A DNA stretch of 64,000 nucleotides from Pseudomonadota bacterium (lineage in GTDB: Bacteria > Pseudomonadota > Gammaproteobacteria > Xanthomonadales > Rhodanobacteraceae), in NCBI GenBank assembly GCA_021793575.1, contig JAJYSM010000012.1, forward strand, positions 1 through 64,000. The letters are read 5' to 3'. Both the position numbers and the translations under genes were made by a program. Under the pieces are notes generated by a model. The model was given only the letters and a program-made list of their open reading frames with translations, was not told where the DNA came from and made no database searches. How positions within the stretch are numbered: position 1 is the first letter of the stretch; every line of letters begins with the position of its first letter. Shown here one piece after another: positions 35,540-46,265 of this stretch.

Positions 35540-36796
35540 TCAGCGATCGACGTCGCCGAACACGAGGTCATAGGTACCGATCATGGCCACCACATCGGCG
35601 AGCATGTGGCCACGCACGACGGTGTCCATGGACGAAAGATGGGCGAAGCCCGGTGCGCGCAGATGCACGCGAAACGGTTTGTTGGCGCCATCGGAAACCA
35701 GGTAGCAACCGAACTCGCCCTTCGGCGCCTCAACCGCACGGTAGGTTTCGCCGGCCGGCACGCAGTAGCCTTCGCTGAACAGCTTGAAGTGGTGAATCAT
35801 GGCTTCCATGTCCTCCTTCATCTCGACCCGCGAGGGCGGTGCCACCTTGAAGTTCTTCAGCATCACCGGGCCGGGGTTCGCACGCAGCCACTGCACGCAC
35901 TGGCGGATGATCCGGTTCGACTGGCGCATCTCTTCCATGCGCACCAGATAACGGTCGTAACAATCGCCGTTGACGCCTACCGGGATGTCAAAATCCACTT
36001 CAGCGTACTTGGCATACGGCTGCTTCTTGCGCAGATCCCATTCGACGCCCGAACCGCGCAGCATGGCGCCGGTCATGCCCCACTGCTGTGCCAGTTCCGG
36101 GCTGATCACACCGATGCCTACGGTGCGCTGCTTCCAGATGCGGTTGCCAGTGAGCAGCTCCTCGTACTCGCCCACCTTCGACGGAAAATCAGCGGTAAAC
36201 GCGTCGAGGAAATCAAGCAGCGAGCCTTCACGCCAACTATTGAGGCGCTTGAGGTCGTTACCCTTGTGCCACGGCGATTCGCGGTGCTGCGGCATCTGCG
36301 CCGGCAGGTCGCGGTAGACGCCGCCGGGGCGGTAATAGTTGGCGTGCATGCGCGCGCCGGAAACTGCCTCGTAGCAGTCCATCAGTTCCTCACGCTCGCG
36401 GAACGCGTACAGGAACACCGCCATCGCTCCCAGATCGAGCCCGTGCGTACCGATCCACAACAGGTGATTGAGGATGCGCGTGATTTCGTCAAACATCGTC
36501 CGGATATACTGCGCCCGCGCCGGGGCCTCGATGCCGAGCAGGGTCTCGATGGCGAGCACATACGCGTGCTCATTGCACATCATCGACATGTAGTCGAGTC
36601 GGTCCATGTAGCCGATCGACTGGTTGAACGGCTTGGACTCGGCCAGCTTCTCCGAACCACGATGCAGCAGGCCCACATGCGGATCGGCGCGCACGACCGT
36701 TTCGCCGTCCATCTCCAGCACCAGCCGCAGCACGCCGTGCGCCGCTGGATGCTGGGGGCCGAAGTTCATCGTGTAGTTGCGGATTTCCTGGGTCAT
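35540..36796 (-). CDS. nuoD: NADH-quinone oxidoreductase subunit D
   Basis: NuoD (418 residues) is the 49-kDa-type subunit that lines the quinone site with NuoB. The [19 protein letters not shown] motif with the quinone-contacting histidine, RGSEKL, and the C-terminal [18 protein letters not shown] are all intact. It is a separate gene from nuoC, not fused as in E. coli. Only one base separates the two. Confidence 0.98.
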
Positions 36797-36797
36797 T

Positions 36798-37526
36798 TCA
36801 GTTCTCCCGCCAGTGATCCGCGGCTTCCGCCTTGGCCTGCAGCAGATCAGCGTCGTTGCGGATGGTTCGCGGCACCAGCACGCGCGGCTCGATTGACACC
36901 GGCTGGTAGATCACCCGCTTCAGCTCGGGGTCGTAACGCACCTCGACGTTGCCGATCAGCGGAAAATCCTTGCGGAACGGATGACCGACGAAACCGTAGT
37001 CGGTGAGGATGCGGCGCAGATCCGGGTGACCGTCGAAGATGATCCCGTACAGGTCGAACGCCTCGCGCTCGAACCAGTTCACCCCTGCCCATACAGACGT
37101 CAGTGACGGCAGCATCGGCAACGTGTCATCGTCACAGAATACGTGCAGACGAAGGCGCCGATTGTGTTCGATCGACAGCAGCTGGATCACCGCAGCGAAA
37201 CGACGCGGCTCACTGGCAGCACGCGGGCGCTCGTCCCAGTTGAAGCGGCCCATCGCCTGCCCCTCGACGCCGCGCGAGAAGCCGTCGCCGCCAGCCGTGT
37301 CGGTGTCCCACTCGGTTTGGCCGTAGCTGAGGTAATCGATACCGCACAGATCGATCAGCTCGCTGAAACGGAACACTGGTTCGTCGCGCAACGCGGTGGT
37401 TACCGCGATCAGGTCGGCGGCAGCCAGTTCAGCGATGGTCTCGTTGCGAACGGCAGTGAGGCTCAGCGTGTCGCCGAATCGCGCAGCGAGCTGCTCGGCC
37501 AACGAGCCTGGATGTGGGTCGGACAT
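36798..37526 (-). CDS. nuoC: NADH-quinone oxidoreductase subunit C
   Basis: NuoC (242 residues) is the 30-kDa-type subunit of the peripheral arm. The family signature [29 protein letters not shown] (given here only by its ends, [11 protein letters not shown] and RRILTDYGF) and HPFRKDFPL are present. It follows nuoB by 9 bases. Confidence 0.97.
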
Positions 37527-37535
37527 GTCAGGGCC

Positions 37536-38093
37536 TCACGAACGCGCGACGGTGCTGGTTCGGCGGATTTTCTTCTGCAACTGCAGGATGCCGTGGATCA
37601 GCGCCTCGGCCGTCGGCGGACAGCCCGGCACGTAGATATCAACCGGCACGATGCGGTCGCAGCCACGCACCACCGAATAGGAGTAATGGTAGTAACCACC
37701 ACCATTGGCGCAGCTACCCATCGAGATCACCCACTTTGGCTCAGCCATCTGGTCGTAGATCTTGCGCAACGCCGGAGCCATCTTGTTGGTCAAGGTGCCG
37801 GCCACAATCATCACATCGGACTGGCGCGGGCTGGGGCGGAAGATCACGCCATAGCGATCCAGATCGAGTCGGGACGCGCCCGCATGCATCATCTCTATGG
37901 CGCAGCAGGCCAAGCCAAACGTCACCGGCCACATCGAACCAGTACGCGCCCAGTTCATCAGCGCATCGACGCTGGTGGTGGCAAAGCCGTGCTGCATGAC
38001 CGGATTGTCACCGACTGGTCGCAGGATATCGTCGACCAGGTTCAGCGGCTGCGGGTTGTGCATCACCCGGCTGACGGAATCGATCACTCCCAT
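37536..38093 (-). CDS. nuoB: NADH-quinone oxidoreductase subunit B
   Basis: NuoB (185 residues) binds the terminal cluster N2. The tandem cysteines in [13 protein letters not shown], then [14 protein letters not shown] and [11 protein letters not shown], provide the four ligands. The ATG at 38093 ([15 protein letters not shown]) lies inside the last codons of nuoA, giving a 10-base overlap. Confidence 0.98.
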
Positions 38094-38440
38094 TCCAGCG
38101 CTCCCTTCTTCCACACGTAGGCAAAACCGATGATCAGCAACAGCAGGAACAAGGCCATCTCGATCAACGCGATCGCGCCAACCTGCATGAACACCACAGC
38201 CCACGGAAACAGGAAAGCGATTTCCAGATCGAAAATGATGAACAGTATCGCCAGCAGGTAGTAGCGCACGTCAAAACGCATGCGGGCATCTTCAAACGGC
38301 TCGAAACCACATTCGTATGGCGTGAATTTTTCCGCTTCCGGGCGACGCGGACCAGCGAGCAGCCCGACGACCAGCAGCAGAAAACCAAGACCGGTGGCAA
38401 CGCCGATGAACAACAGGACAGGCCAGTATTCGGCAAGCAC
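38084..38440 (-). CDS. nuoA: NADH-quinone oxidoreductase subunit A
   Basis: NuoA (118 residues) is a three-helix subunit next to the quinone chamber. Conserved parts are [24 protein letters not shown] (ends quoted: [15 protein letters not shown]) and [14 protein letters not shown]. The start is a GTG at 38440 with GGAGG about 12 bases upstream, giving [11 protein letters not shown] as in homologues. A longer in-frame ATG start would add a non-conserved, Ser/Arg-rich stretch. It is the first gene of the 14-gene operon. The 256-base gap upstream should hold the promoter. Confidence 0.95.
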
Positions 38441-38696
38441 GATACAACGTACCTCCGCGCCGTCAGGCGCATCAGTGACCGCGGAAGAAACGGTCTGGCG
38501 ACTTCGATTCAACAGGCTGGGCGACCGCAGGCTGCTCAACCATGCTTGCATGTGATCGAACGCGTGAGCGTCCGATGTTCCGCGAGATGAACTCGCGAAC
38601 CGTGCAATTGTATCAGCACGCATGGGTACGACGACAAGCACTGACGAGCCGCATCCCGCAGATTGATGCCTCACGCTTTGCGGCATGGTGACGCAG
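38441..38696. promoter_or_regulatory. nuo operon upstream region with a small hairpin
   Basis: This gap separates nuoA from the pilZ stop and is the expected position of the nuo promoter, though no clear sigma-70 boxes were picked out. It contains the stem CGCGAG-ATGAA-CTCGCG at about 38580-38596, which faintly resembles the ATCCATG-loop palindromes. Confidence 0.4.
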
Positions 38697-39050
38697 TTAC
38701 ATCGTCTGGGTGCTGCGCTCGGAACTCAGCGTACCCGCCAGGATGTTCTCGATGCGGCTGCGCGCTGCCTCGGCATCACTCGATTCGTTGAAGTGGATGC
38801 CGATGCCTGCCGTGCGATTGCCCTGCGCGCCGAGCGGGCTGATCCAGACCACCTTGCCGACCACCGACAGCCGCTCGGTCTCCTCGGCCAGCGTCACCAG
38901 CAGCACCACCTCGTCGCCCAGCGAATATTGCTGGGCGGTCGCTGCGAACAGACCTCCGTGCTTGAGAAACGGCATGTACGCGTTGTACAGCGAGGCCGCG
39001 TCCTTGATCTTCAGTGAAATGATGCCCTGGCGGGCGGCCATCGGTTGCAT
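38697..39050 (-). CDS. pilZ: Type IV pilus PilZ protein
   Basis: This 117-residue PilZ-domain protein resembles the Xanthomonas PilZ over its whole length: [12 protein letters not shown] at the start, [45 protein letters not shown] and the conserved C-terminal end ...TQTM. That subgroup lacks the RxxxR c-di-GMP motif and acts through PilB and FimX in type IV pilus assembly. In Xanthomonas the gene follows holB. Here holB is 11 kb away, with the frd block, a c-di-GMP gene and a deacetylase gene between. A 7-bp stem (39103-39109 with 39121-39127) lies upstream. Confidence 0.92.
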
Positions 39051-39342
39051 GCTTGGCTCCTGTCGAACGGCAGGGTCGTCCGATCAATGGCAATGATCTT
39101 GAGCGTGGTGCGCCAACGGTACCACGCGCGAACAATGTACCCGCATCACCCCATCAACGCACGACATGGAAGTGACGCAATGAGTGCTGATCGTCCGGGC
39201 GCCATCGCAGGTTCAGCCTGACGCTCTTGCTCGGACGGTGCCGCAACGATCTCCTGCGCCAGCACGACAGTGATCGACAGCCGGTCGGTTCCTTGACGAC
39301 TGCCTGGAGCCAACGGGAAACTTCCCAGCCGAGTCGGCAGTT

Positions 39343-39951
39343 CTACCTTGATGAATAAACCATGCCGGTCAATTCAGCGGTCAACTGCTTCGCCGTGTCG
39401 TCCATGATTCCATGAAGGCTCTTGGCAATCCGCTCTCGAATCGGGGCGAGCAGTGCTGGCAGGCGTACAGAACGACTCAAGACGCGGGTTTCCGACGCGT
39501 ATAGCTGCAACAGGTCTAACAAAAGACGTTCCAGTTCCACGCGAGAATATGATGCCTGAATGGCGGCGCGGACTCCATTCTCACGTTGCCAACTATCAAG
39601 AACCCGATAAGCAGCACCCAGCAGGCGCTCAATTCGCTTCATGCGGATCGGCAGGATCTCGTCATAGTGAACAGTGATCTTTATCGGTAAACTGCCAATC
39701 TGCGTCAAAAAAACACGGTCGATTTCCTTGGTTGCATCAAGCAGTCTGCGCAGCGCTTCATTATTTGGAGAAACTCCGGCGACAACTGCCTCACCAGCCC
39801 GACGAATGACCAACGCGTCCTTTTGGGTCTCCTTGGAAACATTGCGTGCAAGGACAGGTTCGATATGAGGCAGCGCAAGGCGCAAGGGAAGGATGGCGCG
39901 CAGCGTCATGATGGTGCGTCGACTATAGGCCTCGAGAATTTTCCGATTCAT
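39343..39951 (-). CDS. Hypothetical protein at the end of the frd block
   Basis: I do not recognise this 202-residue protein. It is soluble and mainly helical, without signal peptide, membrane helix or cysteine clusters. It contains a regular leucine-rich helix (RVELERLLLDLLQLYASETR) and a basic N-terminus (MNRKILEAYSRRT). The start is taken as the ATG at 39951. A longer frame reaches 40032 and would come within 11 bases of the methyltransferase stop at 40043. Its lower GC content, orientation and tight spacing place it in the same acquired unit as the methyltransferase and frdABCD. Confidence 0.6.
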   Translation of the reverse strand: MNRKILEAYSRRTIMTLRAILPLRLALPHIEPVLARNVSKETQKDALVIRRAGEAVVAGVSPNNEALRRLLDATKEIDRVFLTQIGSLPIKITVHYDEILPIRMKRIERLLGAAYRVLDSWQRENGVRAAIQASYSRVELERLLLDLLQLYASETRVLSRSVRLPALLAPIRERIAKSLHGIMDDTAKQLTAELTGMVYSSR

Positions 39952-40042
39952 CGCGGCCAGTACGTCTGTCCGATCTAATTGTAGATGGCCAGCAGACCAC
40001 GTTTGCCGCTTGCCTTGTCTGCAATTCGACACGCTTTCGATC

Positions 40043-40801
40043 CTAAATGGATTTGGTTGCGTGATGCATGCCGATCATGCCGCCAAGCAGGGATTTTGCT
40101 GAAACGTCGCGATAGCCTATTTCACGCAATATTCCGCTCAGCTCATCGGCCCGATAGAACATCTTCAGCACATCCAGAAAGTATCGTTTGCTATTCATTG
40201 CGGCTGGGCCGCTTCGGAACAGAAAGCCTGTGAAAATCAGGCAGATGCGCAGATATCCATAATAAATCGTTTCCACTACTGGATTGTCCGGCCGCAACAT
40301 GTCGCAGTGGCAGAAACGACCGCCCGGCTTGAGCACACGGTGGATCTCTTCAAAAACGGTCTTGACGCGCAGATGTCGTGATGCGAACTGCAGCGTCACC
40401 ACGTCAAAATGATCATTCGGGAAAGGGAGCTTATGCACATCACCTATCACGCTCTGGATGCGTAGCCCGCGCGCGCACGCGCGTTGTTGACCAACCTCCT
40501 GCATCGCGGCACTACGGTCCATCGCATGCACTTCCAGGCTCGGTTCATGCTGAAGTAGCGCAATGCCGATCGCGTTCGTGCCAGCACAAACATCGAGTAC
40601 CCGTTCGCCTGGGCGCACATTGATCACTGCTATAAAACGACTTAAAAACCAGCGCCATAATCCAAGGCTGGCCACACGGTTGGCACTATCATAATACGGT
40701 GCGACATCGGCAAATACGTCGTTCAGGCTCTGCTTCCAATAAGCGCTGAACCGCTTTTCACGTGCCTTTTCACGTGATGCCAGATGAGTGTGAGCGTTCA
40801 A
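40043..40801 (-). CDS. UbiE-like class I SAM methyltransferase, paralogue 1
   Basis: The protein has 252 residues and resembles the UbiE/COQ5 quinone methyltransferases. It shows the N-terminal VFADVAPYYDSANRVASLG (UbiE has KYD..ND..S.G), SAM motif I VLDVCAGTNAIGI (Asp70 to Ile80, where UbiE has the GGTGD form), an acidic motif II (VHAMDRS), GDVHKLPFPNDHFDVVT and RVLKPGGRF. The start is a TTG at 40801 with AGGAAA upstream; no ATG occurs before residue 94. It follows frdD by about 100 bases. Its paralogue lies on the other side of frdABCD. A quinone substrate is inferred from family and context. The reaction is unknown, and it is not a clear match to the known rhodoquinone enzyme RquA. Confidence 0.8.
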   Translation of the reverse strand: MNAHTHLASREKAREKRFSAYWKQSLNDVFADVAPYYDSANRVASLGLWRWFLSRFIAVINVRPGERVLDVCAGTNAIGIALLQHEPSLEVHAMDRSAAMQEVGQQRACARGLRIQSVIGDVHKLPFPNDHFDVVTLQFASRHLRVKTVFEEIHRVLKPGGRFCHCDMLRPDNPVVETIYYGYLRICLIFTGFLFRSGPAAMNSKRYFLDVLKMFYRADELSGILREIGYRDVSAKSLLGGMIGMHHATKSI

Positions 40802-40903
40802 TGGCTTTTCCTGTTTGTATTTTCATATACACATAAAAGAAATTGGTCAGACGTGGCGGTATGCAAGAATGGTATGCTTGCTCACTGTCCACATCAGAAT
40901 TCA

Positions 40904-41245
40904 TCAAAATCGTGACAAGTATACCGTCAACGCAACACTACATAGCGCAGCAATGGAATAGGCGACGGTCGCAATCAAGGCATCCGCACGAACGCCGAAG
41001 TCAAAAAAAGTGATCCGCAAACGGTGCGCCTGGCTCCACAACAACAGAAAGAGAACTGTAAATATCGATATTTTTCCGAACCAGTGCGATGCATACGCGT
41101 ACAGTTTTTCATAACCAAAACGGTCGGGCACGTGGCCCGTGGCGGCCAAGAGCGTAAGTACTATCAGCACCGGCACGAACAACGATGCGAGTTCGCCTCC
41201 AGCAGCGAAAAGTCCCCAAATAATAGGTTTATTTGACTTCGCCAT
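40904..41245 (-). CDS. frdD: Fumarate reductase membrane subunit D
   Basis: FrdD (113 residues) is the second membrane anchor of quinol:fumarate reductase. The opening KPIIWGLFAAGGELASLFVPVLIVL matches the E. coli FrdD pattern (WGLFGAGG). It has three helices, and LLLWSQAHRLRITFFD corresponds to the LWCGLHRMHH region of E. coli. No haem-ligand histidine pair is evident, as expected of the haem-free type D enzymes. The ATG at 41245 follows frdC by 2 bases. Confidence 0.9.
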   Translation of the reverse strand: MAKSNKPIIWGLFAAGGELASLFVPVLIVLTLLAATGHVPDRFGYEKLYAYASHWFGKISIFTVLFLLLWSQAHRLRITFFDFGVRADALIATVAYSIAALCSVALTVYLSRF

Positions 41246-41247
41246 GA

Positions 41248-41634
41248 TCAGATTGCCCAGTAAAGAATGAAAATCGACAGCAAGATCCAGACAACATAAT
41301 GCGCGCCTGACACCACGCTATCAGGCATGAATTGCTCTCCCACCTGAATGGGTAGCGCCTTGGGCGCGACGTTGAACCAGGTGAACGAGTTATAGAGTGA
41401 AAATGCCAATGCCAGCACATGAAACATGATGCTCAGCGGTTGGCGCAAGGCGGCAAGGAATCCTTCGTATTGAGCCTGCCCCTCCGACAGACGCGCGAGA
41501 CCAACAAGCAAAATGATCGTGTAGATGCCGATGAAGATGCACGTCACCTCACGCGCCATGTAGCGCATATAACGCGGGCGCTTGAAAAACCAAGCGGTTC
41601 TGGATATTTCATGAACATACGGTCGGCGGCTCAT
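41248..41634 (-). CDS. frdC: Fumarate reductase membrane subunit C
   Basis: FrdC (128 residues) has three transmembrane helices. It begins MSRRPYVHEISRTAWFFKRP, and Glu29 in YMAREVT aligns exactly with Glu29 of E. coli FrdC, a residue needed for menaquinol oxidation. TWFNVAPKALPIQVGEQ matches the TWFELAPKAANI segment of E. coli. The ATG at 41634 overlaps the frdB stop (ATGA). A GTG four codons upstream is less likely. Confidence 0.92.
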   Translation of the reverse strand: MSRRPYVHEISRTAWFFKRPRYMRYMAREVTCIFIGIYTIILLVGLARLSEGQAQYEGFLAALRQPLSIMFHVLALAFSLYNSFTWFNVAPKALPIQVGEQFMPDSVVSGAHYVVWILLSIFILYWAI

Positions 41635-42392
41635 TTTTTGTTCCACGACATGAAGTGTTCAAGATACCAATCGACGGTGCTCGCGACCTTCACCTGCTGC
41701 AGGGCACTGGCTGGATCCACATGTTTGGGGCAGACATCGGAACAGGCACCTACGAAGGTGCACTCCCACACACCCTCGTTGGTGGCAATCTCTTCCTGCC
41801 GTTCATCCCGACCACCGTCGCGCGAGTCCAAGTTGTAGCGATGCGCCAGGGTAATTGCTGCGGGGCCGATGAACTTCGATTTGGTCAAACCGTATTCGGG
41901 ACAGGCCGCGTAGCACAGCATGCAATTGATGCACATCGAAAATCTGCGATAGCGCTGCATCTGAGCCGGGGTCTGTTTGTACTCACCCTCCTCGAGCGTC
42001 TTCGGCTTGGCCGGAATCAAATAAGGCTTGACCCGCTTCAATTTGTCCATGAAGTCGTCGGCGACGGACACGAGGTCGCGTTCAATCGGGAAATGAGCCA
42101 GCGGTTCAAGTCTGATCACGCCTTCGTAATCACGTACCATCGCCTTGCAGGCCAGCTTGGGCTCGCCGTTGATCATCATGCCGCAGCTGCCACACACCTG
42201 CATATGGCAGGACCAGCGGTAGGCCAGCGTGGGATCGATATGGTCTTTGAGGTAATTCAGGGCATCCAGCATGCACCATTCGTTCTTGCACGGTACCGAG
42301 TAGCGCTGATAACTTGGTGTTTCGTCGCGATCCGGGTTGTACCGCAATACCTCAAGCTCAACTTGTCGTGCACCCAGTCTGTTATCACTCAT
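41631..42392 (-). CDS. frdB: Fumarate reductase iron-sulfur subunit B
   Basis: FrdB (253 residues) passes electrons from quinol to the flavoprotein. The [2Fe-2S] ligands lie in RWSCHMQVCGSCGMM and KLAC (about residues 60-83). The [4Fe-4S]/[3Fe-4S] region shows CINCMLCYAACP and CTFVGACSDVCPKH. IGPAAITLAHRYN and QTPAQM are shared with E. coli FrdB rather than SdhB. Start and stop both overlap neighbouring frd genes by four bases, indicating tight coupling. Confidence 0.95.
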   Translation of the reverse strand: MSDNRLGARQVELEVLRYNPDRDETPSYQRYSVPCKNEWCMLDALNYLKDHIDPTLAYRWSCHMQVCGSCGMMINGEPKLACKAMVRDYEGVIRLEPLAHFPIERDLVSVADDFMDKLKRVKPYLIPAKPKTLEEGEYKQTPAQMQRYRRFSMCINCMLCYAACPEYGLTKSKFIGPAAITLAHRYNLDSRDGGRDERQEEIATNEGVWECTFVGACSDVCPKHVDPASALQQVKVASTVDWYLEHFMSWNKK

Positions 42393-44146
42393 TTCTTTGC
42401 TCCCGAGTAATCACGCACACCTGGAGGTGAGGTGGTGATTACCACGTCGCGGTATTCGATACGGGGGCGTTCAGTTTGGCTGTAATACGCCATGGAATGC
42501 TTGAGATACTTGTTGTCATCACGCGCCGTAAAGTCGAGGCGCTGATGCGCACCGCGCGATTCCTTGCGTTCAAGCCCACTCACCGCGACGGCTTCGGCGC
42601 AGTCGAGCATCGAGCCCAACTCTAGCGCTGAGAGCAGATCGGTGTTGTAGACATTTGTCTTGTCGTGAAGCGCCACGTCCGCATAACGGCGGCGCAGATC
42701 AGCAAGCTTGTTGCAAGTTTCCGTCAGGCCATGCGCGGTACGGTAGATGCCTACACCCTCTCCCATGGTATCGGTCATCTCTTTGCGCAGACCAGCGATC
42801 GACTCCTTGCCGACGTCACGCATGAACAGTGCGCGGAGCTTCGCCTGCGCCGCTTCGCCCTGACTTGCCAGCGCAGCATCATTACCCGGCTTCTGATCCC
42901 GCACATACTCAAGCGCGGAGAGACCTGCACGATGACCGAACACCAGAATCTCCACCAGGGAATTCGAGCCCAAACGATTCGCACCGTTGATACTGACGCA
43001 GGCGCATTCGCCCGCGGCGAAAAGACCGGGTATGGACGTAGCTGCGTTGAGATCCGTATGAATGCCGCCCATCATGTAATGTGCCACCGGCCGGATCGGC
43101 ACCATCTCGGCAACCGGATCGATGCCGAGATAGCTGATGCAAATATCGCGCACGAACGGTAGACGTTCGTTGATTTTCTTCTCACCCAAGTGCCGCATGT
43201 CCAGCCAGACGCAATCACCCCACGTCGTCTTCACCGCGCGACCTTTCTGAATCTCATGCCAGATGGATTGGCTCACGCGGTCGCGTGGACCGAGCTCCAT
43301 GGTCTTCAATTCCGGCTTGCCCAGCGGGGTTTCCGGTCCCATGCCGTAGTCCTGCAGGAAGCGATAGTTGTCCTTGTTGAGGAGAACGCCGCCCTCGCTA
43401 CGACACGCTTCGGTCAACAGAGTCCCGGTGTTGGGCAAACCTGTTGGGTGAAACTGGACAAACTCCATGTCCTTCAACGGCACGCCAGCGCGGTAGGCCA
43501 ATGCCATGCCGTCGCCAGTCTTGATGGCACCATTGGTGTTAAACGGAAATATGCGACCTGCCCCACCGCCAGCGATGATTACCGCGCGAGCCTGGAAGCG
43601 GCGCATCTGGCCAGTCTTCATCTCAATTGCAGTGAGGCCTTGGCAACGTCCGTCATCCACAAGGAGATCGGTAGCATAGTATTCGTCAAAGCGCTGGATG
43701 TTCGGATACTGCAGCGTGGTCTGGAACAGCGTATGCAAAATATGGAAACCCGACTTGTCGGCAGCGAACCAGGTGCGTTGGATCTTCATGCCACCAAATG
43801 GTCTCACTGCCACCGAACCATCCGGTTCACGATTCCATGGGCAGCCCCAATGCTCCAACTGAGTCAGTTCTTTGGGGGCCTCATGAATGAAATACTCGAC
43901 CGCGTCCTGATCGCAAAGCCAATCGCCGCCTCCGACGGTGTCATGAAAGTGCTGTTCATAGCTATCGTCGGGCTTGACCACTCCTGCCGCACCACCCTCT
44001 GCAGCACAGGTATGACTGCGCATCGGATAGACTTTTGAGATGAGTGCTATTCGAATTTTGGAATCCGCCTGCGCGAGCGCAATGGCAGCGCGCAAGCCGG
44101 CGCCGCCCGCGCCGATGATGGCTACATCCGCCTTGAACGTCTCCAT
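42389..44146 (-). CDS. frdA: Fumarate reductase flavoprotein subunit A
   Basis: FrdA (585 residues) reduces fumarate to succinate with covalently bound FAD. The N-terminus DVAIIGAGGAGLRAAIALAQ is the FAD-binding fold. SKVYPMRSHTCAAEGG holds the flavinylated His (44 in E. coli) and, five residues on, the Glu typical of FrdA where SdhA has Gln. HPTGLPNTGTLLTEACRSEGG (ends: HPTGLPNTG, CRSEGG), GANRLGSNSL and RKESRGAHQRLD complete the active site. The similarity to E. coli FrdA runs the full length. An AGGAAA site precedes the ATG at 44146. No FNR box was found upstream. Confidence 0.95.
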   Translation of the reverse strand: METFKADVAIIGAGGAGLRAAIALAQADSKIRIALISKVYPMRSHTCAAEGGAAGVVKPDDSYEQHFHDTVGGGDWLCDQDAVEYFIHEAPKELTQLEHWGCPWNREPDGSVAVRPFGGMKIQRTWFAADKSGFHILHTLFQTTLQYPNIQRFDEYYATDLLVDDGRCQGLTAIEMKTGQMRRFQARAVIIAGGGAGRIFPFNTNGAIKTGDGMALAYRAGVPLKDMEFVQFHPTGLPNTGTLLTEACRSEGGVLLNKDNYRFLQDYGMGPETPLGKPELKTMELGPRDRVSQSIWHEIQKGRAVKTTWGDCVWLDMRHLGEKKINERLPFVRDICISYLGIDPVAEMVPIRPVAHYMMGGIHTDLNAATSIPGLFAAGECACVSINGANRLGSNSLVEILVFGHRAGLSALEYVRDQKPGNDAALASQGEAAQAKLRALFMRDVGKESIAGLRKEMTDTMGEGVGIYRTAHGLTETCNKLADLRRRYADVALHDKTNVYNTDLLSALELGSMLDCAEAVAVSGLERKESRGAHQRLDFTARDDNKYLKHSMAYYSQTERPRIEYRDVVITTSPPGVRDYSGAKK

Positions 44147-44299
44147 CAGTTTTCCTCGCAGTTGTCGCGTCGCACCCGAAACGGGTCAATAACACTCAGA
44201 TACATGGTCATATCCACTCAAACGCAGTGCCCGATCTGATTGAGGTCAGCCGGCTGCGGTGCAGGGTTGATGTAGGTGTGCAGCGAATCATGAGCGCCC

Positions 44300-44915
44300 G
44301 CCATTTGAACGCAAGGTGCAGCCTGCGGCTTGATCGACCTGAGGTGACGCATGGCCGAAGCCGGAGCATTCTTCGTAACCCGACCCGAGTCACACATGCC
44401 TGTACGTCACGCGTACTCCGCGCAGTCCGACCGCGCGGCTGGCGGTGACCTGCCATCCATACCTGAGGCTTTATGGCCACTGCTCGGCGAGGAGATGCAA
44501 CGGGCGTCCTCGACGCACCCGATGCCAGGATTCCGAGCCGGGCAAGACGGCGGCGGTACTGATTAACAGCACGGCGCTCTTCGCGCCGACAATCTGTGCA
44601 ATCTACAAGGGTCGCTGGCAGCCCTGGCTGTTCTTCAGGCGGGTAACACCGCATGTGTGCATCAATCATCTCTTGGGCAACAGCTTGAACGCCACCGAGA
44701 CACAAGCAGGGTGCGCCATTGCCAACTACACACACACCACCATTGCCAAAAACACTTTTCAACTCGACGCCTCGCTCTCTTCCTGTCTAAGATCCTGTCG
44801 GTCTCAATTTTGGAGAAAACCCAGCTCTCACGCGCCCCGCAAGTCGATCCGCCTCTATCCGATTCGGCTGATGCGACTAATCAGCTGATCTTGCTGGATG
44901 CATCATCAGTGAGTA
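44300..44915 (+). pseudogene. Decayed IS4-family transposase fragment
   Basis: Several plus-strand frames together give the C-terminal half of a DDE transposase. AGAFFVTRPESHMPVRHAYS starts near 44360. TICAIYKGRWQPWLFFRRV lies near 44598, where intact proteins read YKSRWQVELFFKWIKQ. GNSLNATETQAGCAIANYT lies near 44680, and SKILSVSILEKTQLSRAPQ near 44790 with the terminal NQLILLD near 44878. The shifts between frames and the lost catalytic glutamate (VELFF changed to PWLFF) show it is dead. No N-terminal half and no terminal inverted repeats were found. Confidence 0.75.
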
Positions 44916-44953
44916 GTTGAACGCAAGAATAGAATGGCACTTACTGAACCTCA

Positions 44954-44975
44954 TTGGGATGGCCATAACGTCGCA
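44954..44975 (+). repeat. 22-bp direct repeat, left copy
   Basis: TTGGGATGGCCATAACGTCG plus CA matches 46172-46193 at 19 of 22 positions, with the last 13 bases identical. The two copies bracket methyltransferase paralogue 2. The left copy lies just past the transposase remnant. Confidence 0.5.
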
Positions 44976-45207
44976 GGCTGAGGTGAGCAGGCGGGGGCTA
45001 ACTGGTCGGGCTCAACATGCCAGCAGCGTCTGGCGCAGCGGCAGCGGCCGCTGCGGGCCCAAGCCTGCCGTCGCACGTACAGGCCATCCGACAACTAACA
45101 CAGCCGGCCGCTGATGGGCGAGGTCACCCAACGGTGGTCGCGTTTTTATGTCTGCATGATTGGACGTCTCTGGGGACTCCAGCACGCGGGATTTGTCCGG
45201 GAATCTC

Positions 45208-45993
45208 TCAGATCGAAACTTTTTGCGCCGCATGAAACCCTACCATCCCACCCCAGATGCTTCTCTTGCATTTAATATTTGAAAATCCTATGAGCTGCAA
45301 CACATCGGAAAATTCATCTGTGGTATAGAAATGATGAATGGCGTCACCGAAATAGCCATTGCATTTTCTGGTTGTCTCGGTTGACCCGAAGATCATGGAT
45401 GTCATGAAAACAGAAATACGCAAGAAGCGAAGATAGAGCCATTCAACAACCGGATTATTCGGCTTGAGCATATCGCAGTGATAGAAGAATCCGCCTGGTT
45501 TCAGCACACGGAAGATTTCGGGTAATACTTTATCCAATTGCAGGTGACGCGATGCGGCTTGGAGCGTAATCACGTCGAAAGAGCTGTCTGGAAACGGGAG
45601 TTCGTGAACATCCTGAATGATGCTGGCAATCTGCAGACCCGTTTTTTTCGCCCTTCGCTGCCCCTCGATCTGCATTTCCTGGCTACGATCAATGGCAGTA
45701 ACGGAAATGAGGGGCTCTTTTTTCCGCAACCTGATCCCCACGTCATTGGTTCCTGCGCAGACATCGAGAACCTGGTACTGCGGGAGCAGATTTATTGTCC
45801 TAACGAACTGCCAGACCCAAATTTCCCACAAACCAAGGCTCGCAACGATGTTCCCCGGTCGATAATATCGCGGAACGTCCTTGAAAACCTTGGGCACCAT
45901 CTGTGACCATACATTTGAAAAAAGCGACCGCCGATGTTTTTCTCTTTGTTCAAATATTTCCGTGGTTATCGAAGAAGATACATTCTGCTTCAT
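45208..45993 (-). CDS. UbiE-like class I SAM methyltransferase, paralogue 2
   Basis: The protein has 261 residues and is clearly homologous to the product of the gene at 40043. Shared stretches include NIVASLGLWE against NRVASLGLWR, VLDVCAGTNDVGI (motif I, about residues 75-87), ELPFPDSSFDVITLQAASRHL, VLKPGGFFYHCDMLKPNNPV and YLRFLRISVF. Both carry Asn where typical UbiE motif I has Gly. The ATG at 45993 follows an AAGGAG site nine bases upstream. The gene precedes frdA with the transposase remnant between. It is low in GC and probably has its own promoter in the 270-base gap upstream. The substrate is inferred to be a quinone or its precursor. Confidence 0.8.
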   Translation of the reverse strand: MKQNVSSSITTEIFEQREKHRRSLFSNVWSQMVPKVFKDVPRYYRPGNIVASLGLWEIWVWQFVRTINLLPQYQVLDVCAGTNDVGIRLRKKEPLISVTAIDRSQEMQIEGQRRAKKTGLQIASIIQDVHELPFPDSSFDVITLQAASRHLQLDKVLPEIFRVLKPGGFFYHCDMLKPNNPVVEWLYLRFLRISVFMTSMIFGSTETTRKCNGYFGDAIHHFYTTDEFSDVLQLIGFSNIKCKRSIWGGMVGFHAAQKVSI

Positions 45994-46131
45994 CAACAAT
46001 ACTCCTTGATTCTTTAAACAAGCACAGCTTTTGCCTACTTCTAAGTGGCAACTGGTGGATCTCTGATCTGAAGATGCAGCTTCTTGTCTCCAAATATCCT
46101 GACCGCCAAGACCAAGGTGAGAACCTTACGA

Positions 46132-46155
46132 CAATTATCGTCTGGATAATAATTG
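46132..46155. promoter_or_regulatory. Operator-like dyad upstream of methyltransferase paralogue 2
   Basis: CAATTAT (46132-46138) and ATAATTG (46149-46155) form a perfect 7-bp inverted repeat with a 10-base spacer in an AT-rich patch, about 140 bases upstream of the leftward start at 45993. Its size fits a dimeric regulator site. It does not match the FNR consensus. Confidence 0.4.
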
Positions 46156-46171
46156 CACTTATCCAAGCCGC

Positions 46172-46193
46172 TTGGAACGACCATAACGTCGCA
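46172..46193 (+). repeat. 22-bp direct repeat, right copy
   Basis: This is the partner of 44954-44975 (19 of 22 identical, same orientation). It lies between the methyltransferase upstream region and the end of the GGDEF-EAL gene, close to the apparent right boundary of the low-GC block. Confidence 0.5.
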
Positions 46194-46265
46194 CGTCGCC
46201 ACGCTGAACGCGGCTGGGTGAGTACCGCCTGATTCACGCGACACCGGTGCGGGTCGCGGCGCGGG

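Follow-up and report, generated by a model that had tools for sequence, protein, structure and literature searches.

Which quinone would serve an Escherichia coli-type fumarate reductase whose genes lie between two genes for quinone methyltransferase-like proteins? The question is raised by the window analysed here, a 64,000-nucleotide stretch (contig JAJYSM010000012.1) from a gammaproteobacterium of the Rhodanobacteraceae. An initial annotation of this DNA had described a low-GC frdABCD locus between two UbiE/COQ5-like genes and proposed that the pair either converts ubiquinone into a low-potential quinone for the reductase or methylates menaquinone. We propose, with a probability of roughly 0.83, that the locus is a horizontally acquired island for rhodoquinone-dependent fumarate respiration, which carries an RquA-linked companion gene, orf229, and a diverged second rquA gene, rquA2. 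The genes and their family relations, the empty site in relatives, the module shared with other bacteria and the linkage of orf229 to rquA can all be read directly from the DNA.

Layout of the locus

On the minus strand, from 39.1 to 46.3 kb, the order is rquA2, a 1.06-kb gap, frdA, frdB, frdC, frdD, rquA1, orf229, pilZ and nuoA onward. The seven frames of the island are all open:

45208..45993, minus strand: rquA2, divergent second RquA-like protein, 261 amino acids (PF01209; ATG start, or a start at 45999 if the upstream TTG is used)
42389..44146, minus strand: frdA, fumarate reductase flavoprotein, 585 amino acids (NF006686, TIGR01176)
41631..42392, minus strand: frdB, iron-sulfur subunit, 253 amino acids (NF009051)
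41248..41634, minus strand: frdC, membrane anchor (PF02300; the ATG overlaps the frdB stop, and the open reading frame list gives a GTG at 41646)
40904..41245, minus strand: frdD, membrane anchor, 113 amino acids (NF003977, PF02313)
40043..40801, minus strand: rquA1, RquA, predicted to make rhodoquinone from ubiquinone, 252 amino acids (TTG start)
39343..40032, minus strand: orf229, RquA companion, predicted all-helical, 229 amino acids (GTG start 10 nt past the rquA1 stop)

The frd genes were found between the two UbiE/COQ5-like genes as the initial annotation had placed them, all on the minus strand, and the low GC content was borne out: it is 0.50-0.58 per kb at 40-46 kb, 0.56-0.60 at 38-40 kb and 0.60-0.75 in all other kb of the window. 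The genes of that description stood, but it had missed orf229 and an IS4-type insertion sequence (IS) remnant in the 1.06-kb gap.

A fumarate reductase of the E. coli type

FrdA, FrdB and FrdD each score above at least one NCBIfam equivalog cut-off: FrdA with 961.8 bits against 854 (NF006686) and 943.9 against 932.7 (TIGR01176), FrdB with 371.8 against 333 (NF009051), and FrdD with 81.3 against 60 (NF003977), together with a match to PF02313. FrdC passes its Pfam threshold (PF02300, 134.8 bits against 24.2) and does not reach that of the NCBIfam FrdC model (93.8 against 143). With frdABCD in order and two small anchors, the locus has the make-up of an E. coli-type (type D) quinol:fumarate reductase (QFR), FrdC being assigned by Pfam only. 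Glu29 of FrdC (numbered from the ATG at 41634) and the FrdA motif HTCAAEGG, both pointed out earlier, were confirmed from the sequence. We take FrdC Glu29 and the Glu of HTxAAEGG to be QFR-type residues, and Glu29 is presumably a feature in common with E. coli Frd. A second SdhA/FrdA-type flavoprotein is encoded on another contig of the genome.

The bracketing proteins resemble RquA rather than UbiE

The two methyltransferase-like proteins are 50% identical to each other and belong to PF01209, the UbiE/COQ5-type class I S-adenosylmethionine (SAM)-methyltransferase family (E values of 1.6e-36 for RquA1 and 2e-29 for RquA2). Their best named NCBIfam matches are UbiE/MenG models, which is what would be expected if the pair methylated menaquinone or another quinone. 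Every one of these matches falls below its curated cut-off, however, the best being 137 against 158.35 and 126.3 against 216 for RquA1, with 116.3 and 104.4 for RquA2, and a separate UbiE-like protein is encoded on another contig. An alignment of 80 RquA relatives has 90 columns with conservation of at least 97%. Of these, RquA1 keeps 88, a distant relative (L008) 86 and RquA2 77, and the genome's own UbiE keeps 42. UbiE thus differs at 48 columns, RquA1 at 2 and RquA2 at 13; of the 48 that tell UbiE apart from the RquA set, 47 are kept by RquA1 and 41 by RquA2.

The motifs point the same way. In SAM motif I, both window proteins have LDVCAGTN and the genome's own UbiE has LDLAGGTG. Across 83 aligned rows it is LDVCAGTN in 79 (both window proteins included), LDVCGGTN in two, and LDICAGTN and LDLCAGTN in one each; the motif I of RquA is reported to depart from that of other class I methyltransferases (PMC5953543). 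Both copies carry D95 and D121 (RquA1 numbering), candidate equivalents of Rhodospirillum rubrum Asp118 and Asp143. Oligonucleotides published for R. rubrum rquA (PMC6529003) encode FEPGQE, LQPA and FMDRSR, which align by eye with RPGER, LLQ and AMDRSA of RquA1, and FMDRSR fits the first aspartate. In a tree of 84 rows, none known as an experimentally proven RquA and with a bootstrap that had not settled, RquA1 falls in a five-row clade (100/100) with Sulfuriferula, Burkholderiales and Polaromonas metagenome-assembled genomes (MAGs).

These comparisons make a strong but indirect case that both proteins are RquA-like and not UbiE. It is indirect because the relatives that make up the family are themselves unproven, and the other evidence consists of motifs and published oligonucleotides. 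Two further points weigh against it: two of the 13 departures of RquA2 go towards UbiE (L26V and A77D), and an rquA from Desulfobacterota is reported to have given no rhodoquinone in E. coli (PMC13386864), so that a call from sequence falls short of proof.

Quinones available to the cell

The genome is 99.83% complete in 123 contigs, and we judged each menaquinone route by one marker, MenD for the Men pathway and MqnC for the futalosine pathway. Both were below cut-off genome-wide (best MenD score 62.1 against 244.2 bits, best MqnC score 18.4 against 428.1), and therefore neither menaquinone route is visible by these single markers. Among ubiquinone pathway components, which were covered by UbiE, UbiU and UbiV, the last two are encoded next to each other at one locus and exceed their NCBIfam cut-offs (528.7 against 440 bits and 348.8 against 275); NCBIfam names them ubiquinone anaerobic biosynthesis proteins. 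Chobert et al. (PMC11707229) report an O2-independent ubiquinone pathway in 73 of 84 rquA genomes and menaquinone in only 5 cases. The combination of UbiU and UbiV with sub-threshold MenD and MqnC fits this usual rhodoquinone setting.

The check for menaquinone and rquA genes that the initial annotation had suggested thus found the two markers below cut-off and the bracketing pair itself to be RquA-like. Its proposal that ubiquinone is converted to a low-potential quinone for Frd is supported by the RquA-like sequences, the separate UbiE, the presence of UbiU and UbiV and the sub-threshold scores of MenD and MqnC. Its other option, methylation of menaquinone, finds no menaquinone route to act in, by one marker per pathway, and we consider a UbiE/MenG-like role of the pair very improbable. 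Nor would the locus be self-contained for quinone, as had been suggested, since rhodoquinone derives from ubiquinone, which is made elsewhere.

The recurrent unit

To place the locus among its relatives we used the best 80 of 245 relatives from a scan of named prokaryote genomes (L009-L088). Complete frdABCD on the rquA strand, with each subunit above 90 bits, is present in 42 of these 80 loci, upstream of rquA in 36 and downstream in 6; frd genes are partial on short contigs in 5 more and absent from 33. The linkage of methyltransferase and frd genes for which a survey had been proposed does recur, and the bracket does not: a second rquA above 60 bits was found in 0 of the 80 related loci, and the two-sided arrangement was seen in this genome only. 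The recurrent unit is frdABCD-rquA plus orf229. The statement that no system with this layout had been described was too strong, in that rquA in the vicinity of genes for complex I, II or III was reported by Stairs et al. (2018; PMC5953543).

Some relatives depart from the common pattern. One locus titled Deltaproteobacteria bacterium (L047) has rquA followed by a 4Fe-4S protein, a possible transfer or mis-binning. The protein encoded after rquA in two Methylococcaceae loci is unrelated and has a weak, sub-cut-off YtkA-like match (L079, 9773-10336; L081, 9782-10336).

orf229 follows rquA

A homologue of orf229 lies directly downstream of rquA in 55 of the 80 loci, with a gap of -14 to 65 nt (script-chosen starts), and all 55 homologues found in these loci sit in that place. 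The order of the genes around them varies (frd-rquA-orf229, rquA-orf229-frd and nuoA-rquA-orf229-nuoB) and rquA is the constant neighbour. The pair is also present in a cultured betaproteobacterium, Sulfurisoma sediminicola (L030). Among 398 sampled genomes of the phylum, only two gave rquA (E at most 1e-40), and these same two alone gave orf229 (E at most 1e-4); the window's own genome is one of them, and two cases are few. The rquA surveys at this threshold used a two-row profile built from the window, which may miss distant RquA, and the large genome surveys score only part of the first-pass candidates.

The protein has no clear match in the family libraries. The window protein matched 0 Pfam or NCBIfam families, 43 members of its family gave one weak match per library (E 0.003-0.005), which we read as chance, and no PDB sequence matched below E 0.18. 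An AlphaFold2 model is confident and nearly all-helical (mean predicted local distance difference test score 92.4), and structural comparison gave no clear fold match. Thirteen positions are invariant in the 43 members, many of them charged, including N43, K46, E47, K50, D51, D84, R109, R112, Y157 and E160. The ratio of nonsynonymous to synonymous substitution rates (dN/dS) is 0.14-0.15 against two donor-like loci (L010 and L011); judged by this ratio, orf229 is under purifying selection.

We asked whether the partner of orf229 might instead be the fumarate reductase or complex I, which it could serve as an assembly factor or regulator within a locus that is still a rhodoquinone locus. Frd genes are present in 39 of the 55 orf229 loci and nuo genes in 33, as this alternative would have it. 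On the other hand, frd genes are missing from 16 of the 55 loci and nuo genes from 22 (some contigs are short), and rquA is there throughout. Because of the 16 loci without frd, we consider orf229 tied to rquA more than to frd, and a role with Frd or Nuo unlikely.

Stairs et al. (PMC5953543) report that rquA was not found near other hypothetical proteins, and that profiling revealed no other enzyme that shares its distribution; we therefore take orf229 to be an undescribed companion. We did not find orf229 as an rquA neighbour in the published literature available to us, and supplementary tables, for example those of PMC5953543, may list it.

Several observations count against an essential or universal role for orf229. 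In 25 of the 80 loci there is no orf229 beside rquA, although each has at least 700 nt of downstream sequence. Seven of these 25 genomes have a copy elsewhere and 18 have none at E at most 1e-4, in a search in which three control genomes were positive; most of the 25 are metagenome bins, and some absences may be gaps. The 80 loci, chosen as the best of 245, are mutually related, so that the counts are not independent. Purified RquA alone is reported to make rhodoquinone (PMC9814641). Since RquA works in vitro without orf229 and many rquA genomes show none, orf229 seems not to be strictly required for rhodoquinone synthesis.

Four pairs of loci seemingly come from the same genome each, as judged by shared contig-name prefixes (L014/L029, L022/L040, L043/L050 and L066/L071). 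In each pair, one rquA locus has orf229 and the other does not.

Probable transfer of the island

The outer limits and smaller parts of the island are:

39105..46254, strand not assigned: entire inserted island, from pilZ-nuoA to a GGDEF/EAL gene (approximate edges, set by comparison with L118, the closest relative)
39355..44176, minus strand: transferred module frdABCD-rquA1-orf229 (continuous DNA match to L010)
44360..44841, plus strand (inferred from the alignment with an annotated gene): degraded IS4-family transposase remnant (DNA similarity to ISPosp4)
44933..46193, minus strand: span between two 43-nt direct repeats (44933-44975 and 46151-46193), enclosing rquA2

The island is a 7.1-kb insertion. 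We examined 19 loci of relatives, obtained from 30 same-genus genomes with a nuoA hit. In 17 of them pilZ-nuoA on one flank and the EAL gene on the other are contiguous; one of the other two stops at a contig edge and one has no EAL-gene match. In the closest relative the flanks lie about 43 nt apart, against 7.1 kb here. At E at most 1e-40, RquA was found in 1 of 197 genomes of the family, the window's own. FrdC scored 134.1 bits here and at most 28.7 in all others of the same 197 genomes; some match was present in 103 of them, 59 above the Pfam cut-off, and we take the other family matches to be putative SdhC cross-hits.

The module matches the DNA of a Burkholderiales MAG (L010) in one piece, over 4829 columns at 82.75% identity, beginning at the frdA ribosome-binding site and ending close to the orf229 stop. 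In DNA, the transposase remnant in the gap is about 66% identical to ISPosp4 (Polaromonas sp. JS666, plasmid 2), the nearest among plasmids. Because of this module identity and the Polaromonas-like IS4 remnant, a betaproteobacterial source of the island appears likely.

The second copy, rquA2

RquA2 has no close relative: the closest that we found is 52% identical, and the tree gives it an end branch of 2.21, where the median is 0.065. At the first and second codon positions, GC is 0.498 and 0.368 in rquA2 and 0.611 and 0.409 in rquA1. The 43-nt direct repeats around the gene are 74% identical to each other, and no further copy of them was found in the genome (at most 3 mismatches in a 33-nt core). 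Since it lacks a close relative, has its own flanking repeats and has lower GC at the first two codon positions, rquA2 was probably acquired separately.

The same features, together with the 13 changes at conserved columns (which include A34P, D38R, R39P and L83R), could mean that RquA2 has a job of its own, acting on another quinone substrate or forming a pair with RquA1 and so regulating it; published work describes RquA as a homodimer (PMC9814641). RquA2 nevertheless keeps most of the columns that distinguish RquA from UbiE, among them motif I and both aspartates, and retains LDVCAGTN, IDRS and QDVH; its divergence may just reflect an unsampled lineage, given that its closest relative stands at 52%. 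A distinct job is possible, and we favour it less than the reading of rquA2 as a second, diverged RquA copy, which probably supplies the same activity redundantly or under other regulation.

Placement beside complex I

Two neighbouring features lie downstream of the island:

38697..39050, between the island and nuoA: pilZ, small PilZ-domain protein (Pfam)
35540..38473, minus strand: nuoA-D, first genes of the host's complex I operon (about 0.4-0.7 kb separates nuoA from the island upstream of it, and both run the same way)

The nuoA-D genes are presumably what we call them, the labels being our own assignments from the window protein sequences. With these proteins as queries, homologues were present in 42 of the 80 related loci. 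In 21 of the 80, rquA and nuoA share a strand, with rquA upstream; another 13, all of one Sulfuritalea-like clade, have divergent nuo genes; and in 8 (L013, L016, L018, L027, L034, L049, L057 and L062) rquA lies between nuoA and nuoB, six of these also carrying frd. The L034 homologue of the nuoB query carries the Pfam complex I 20-kDa domain. The 42 nuo-bearing loci are not 42 independent events, yet they show several different arrangements. The closest relatives of the module, L009-L012, show no nuo genes in 7.6-18.7 kb, and for this reason the placement beside nuoA in the window probably arose anew. That rquA occurs within 15 genes of complex I genes is published (PMC5953543). Its insertion between nuoA and nuoB was not found in the published literature available to us, and supplementary tables may hold such cases.

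Cyclic-di-GMP-type genes also stand beside complex I in this genus, with pilZ upstream of nuoA and then a GGDEF/EAL gene in 17 of 19 same-genus loci.

Is the island active?

An IS4 insertion upstream of frdA could have left the island as a decaying or silent passenger with no working promoter, and the strain would then have no rhodoquinone respiration. Three observations weigh in that direction and against a working island: the IS remnant lies in the gap upstream of frdA, no FNR-like site (at most 2 mismatches) was found in 44147-45207, and a crude scan, limited to sigma-70-type sites, gave no such promoter on the minus strand between 39000 and 46500. The 13 changed columns of RquA2 and the absence of rquA, at the survey threshold, from the 196 other family genomes searched would also suit a passenger. 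Against it, all seven frames are open, and dN/dS is 0.02-0.15 for frdA, frdB, rquA1 and orf229 against L010 and L011; these four genes were covered, and the comparison of rquA1 with rquA2 was saturated. The place beside nuo is moreover common to the 42 nuo-bearing loci described above, and the promoter scan was crude. We consider a silent passenger improbable and retain the reading of a functional rhodoquinone island.

FNR-like sites at the same stringency number 25 across the whole window, against 8.8 expected from shuffles.

A model for rhodoquinone-dependent fumarate respiration

From the gene content we infer the electron flow, the roles of orf229 and rquA2 and anaerobic expression. The host ubiquinone pathway would supply ubiquinone, also without oxygen. 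RquA1 would then replace a methoxy group of ubiquinone with an amino group from SAM to give rhodoquinone, as we deduce from the published biochemistry of RquA, in which ubiquinone and SAM yield rhodoquinone (PMC9814641). The reaction that defines an RquA takes Mn2+ along with SAM. Complex I, encoded directly downstream, would reduce rhodoquinone with NADH and pump protons, and FrdABCD would re-oxidise rhodoquinol and reduce fumarate to succinate. The orf229 product may act with RquA as a quinone-presenting or scaffold protein, or in the control of RquA; we place it with RquA rather than with Frd because it follows rquA with or without frd. The second copy, rquA2, probably a separate acquisition, could provide RquA activity redundantly or under different regulation.

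A broader proposal is that orf229 represents an undescribed family and a dedicated partner of RquA, and that frdABCD-rquA-orf229 is a portable NADH-to-fumarate cassette, repeatedly placed beside or inside the complex I operon and here brought from betaproteobacteria to a lineage in which the sampled relatives do not have it. We regard this as an even call. If true, a recurrent orf229 partner would change the picture of RquA as the one dedicated gene of bacterial rhodoquinone synthesis, as published work has it, and might bear on the modest SAM affinity of purified RquA (Kd about 2.2 mM; PMC9814641). Parasitic worms also use rhodoquinone, made by another route (PMC6656428). The recurrent position of frd-rquA beside or inside nuo suggests complex I as the intended electron donor, and the island shows how the transfer of a short block of genes may bring respiration with a low-potential quinone.

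Comparison with known systems

The E. coli quinol:fumarate reductase (type D) has the same four subunits, encoded in the same order. It works with menaquinol; here, in contrast, menaquinone markers are below cut-off and rquA is in the same cluster. The betaproteobacterial loci L009-L012 (Sulfuriferula, Burkholderiales and Polaromonas MAGs) share the order frdABCD-rquA-orf229 at about 81-83% DNA identity, with L012 at 74% over the rquA1-orf229 part and L009 stopping inside orf229. They differ from the window in having a single rquA and no nuo genes in the 7.6-18.7 kb around each.

A close physiological parallel is 'Candidatus Thiosymbion oneisti' (PMC8269255), a gammaproteobacterium without menaquinone that has frdABCD and rquA and for which rhodoquinone use was proposed; the accessible part of that account does not describe gene linkage, a companion gene or a second rquA, unlike what is seen here. 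Compared with known RquA systems, this locus has two copies, one of them very divergent, and a downstream orf229 that is absent from the published descriptions as far as these are accessible. It resembles RquA of R. rubrum (Rru_A3227) and relatives (PMC9814641, PMC5953543) in its class I SAM-methyltransferase family, with an unusual motif I, in the respiratory genes linked to it and in a patchy, lateral-transfer distribution; two aspartates are candidate counterparts of R. rubrum Asp118 and Asp143. The core of the locus mostly fits known rhodoquinone biology, and the companion family, the placement beside nuo and the clean acquisition go beyond it.

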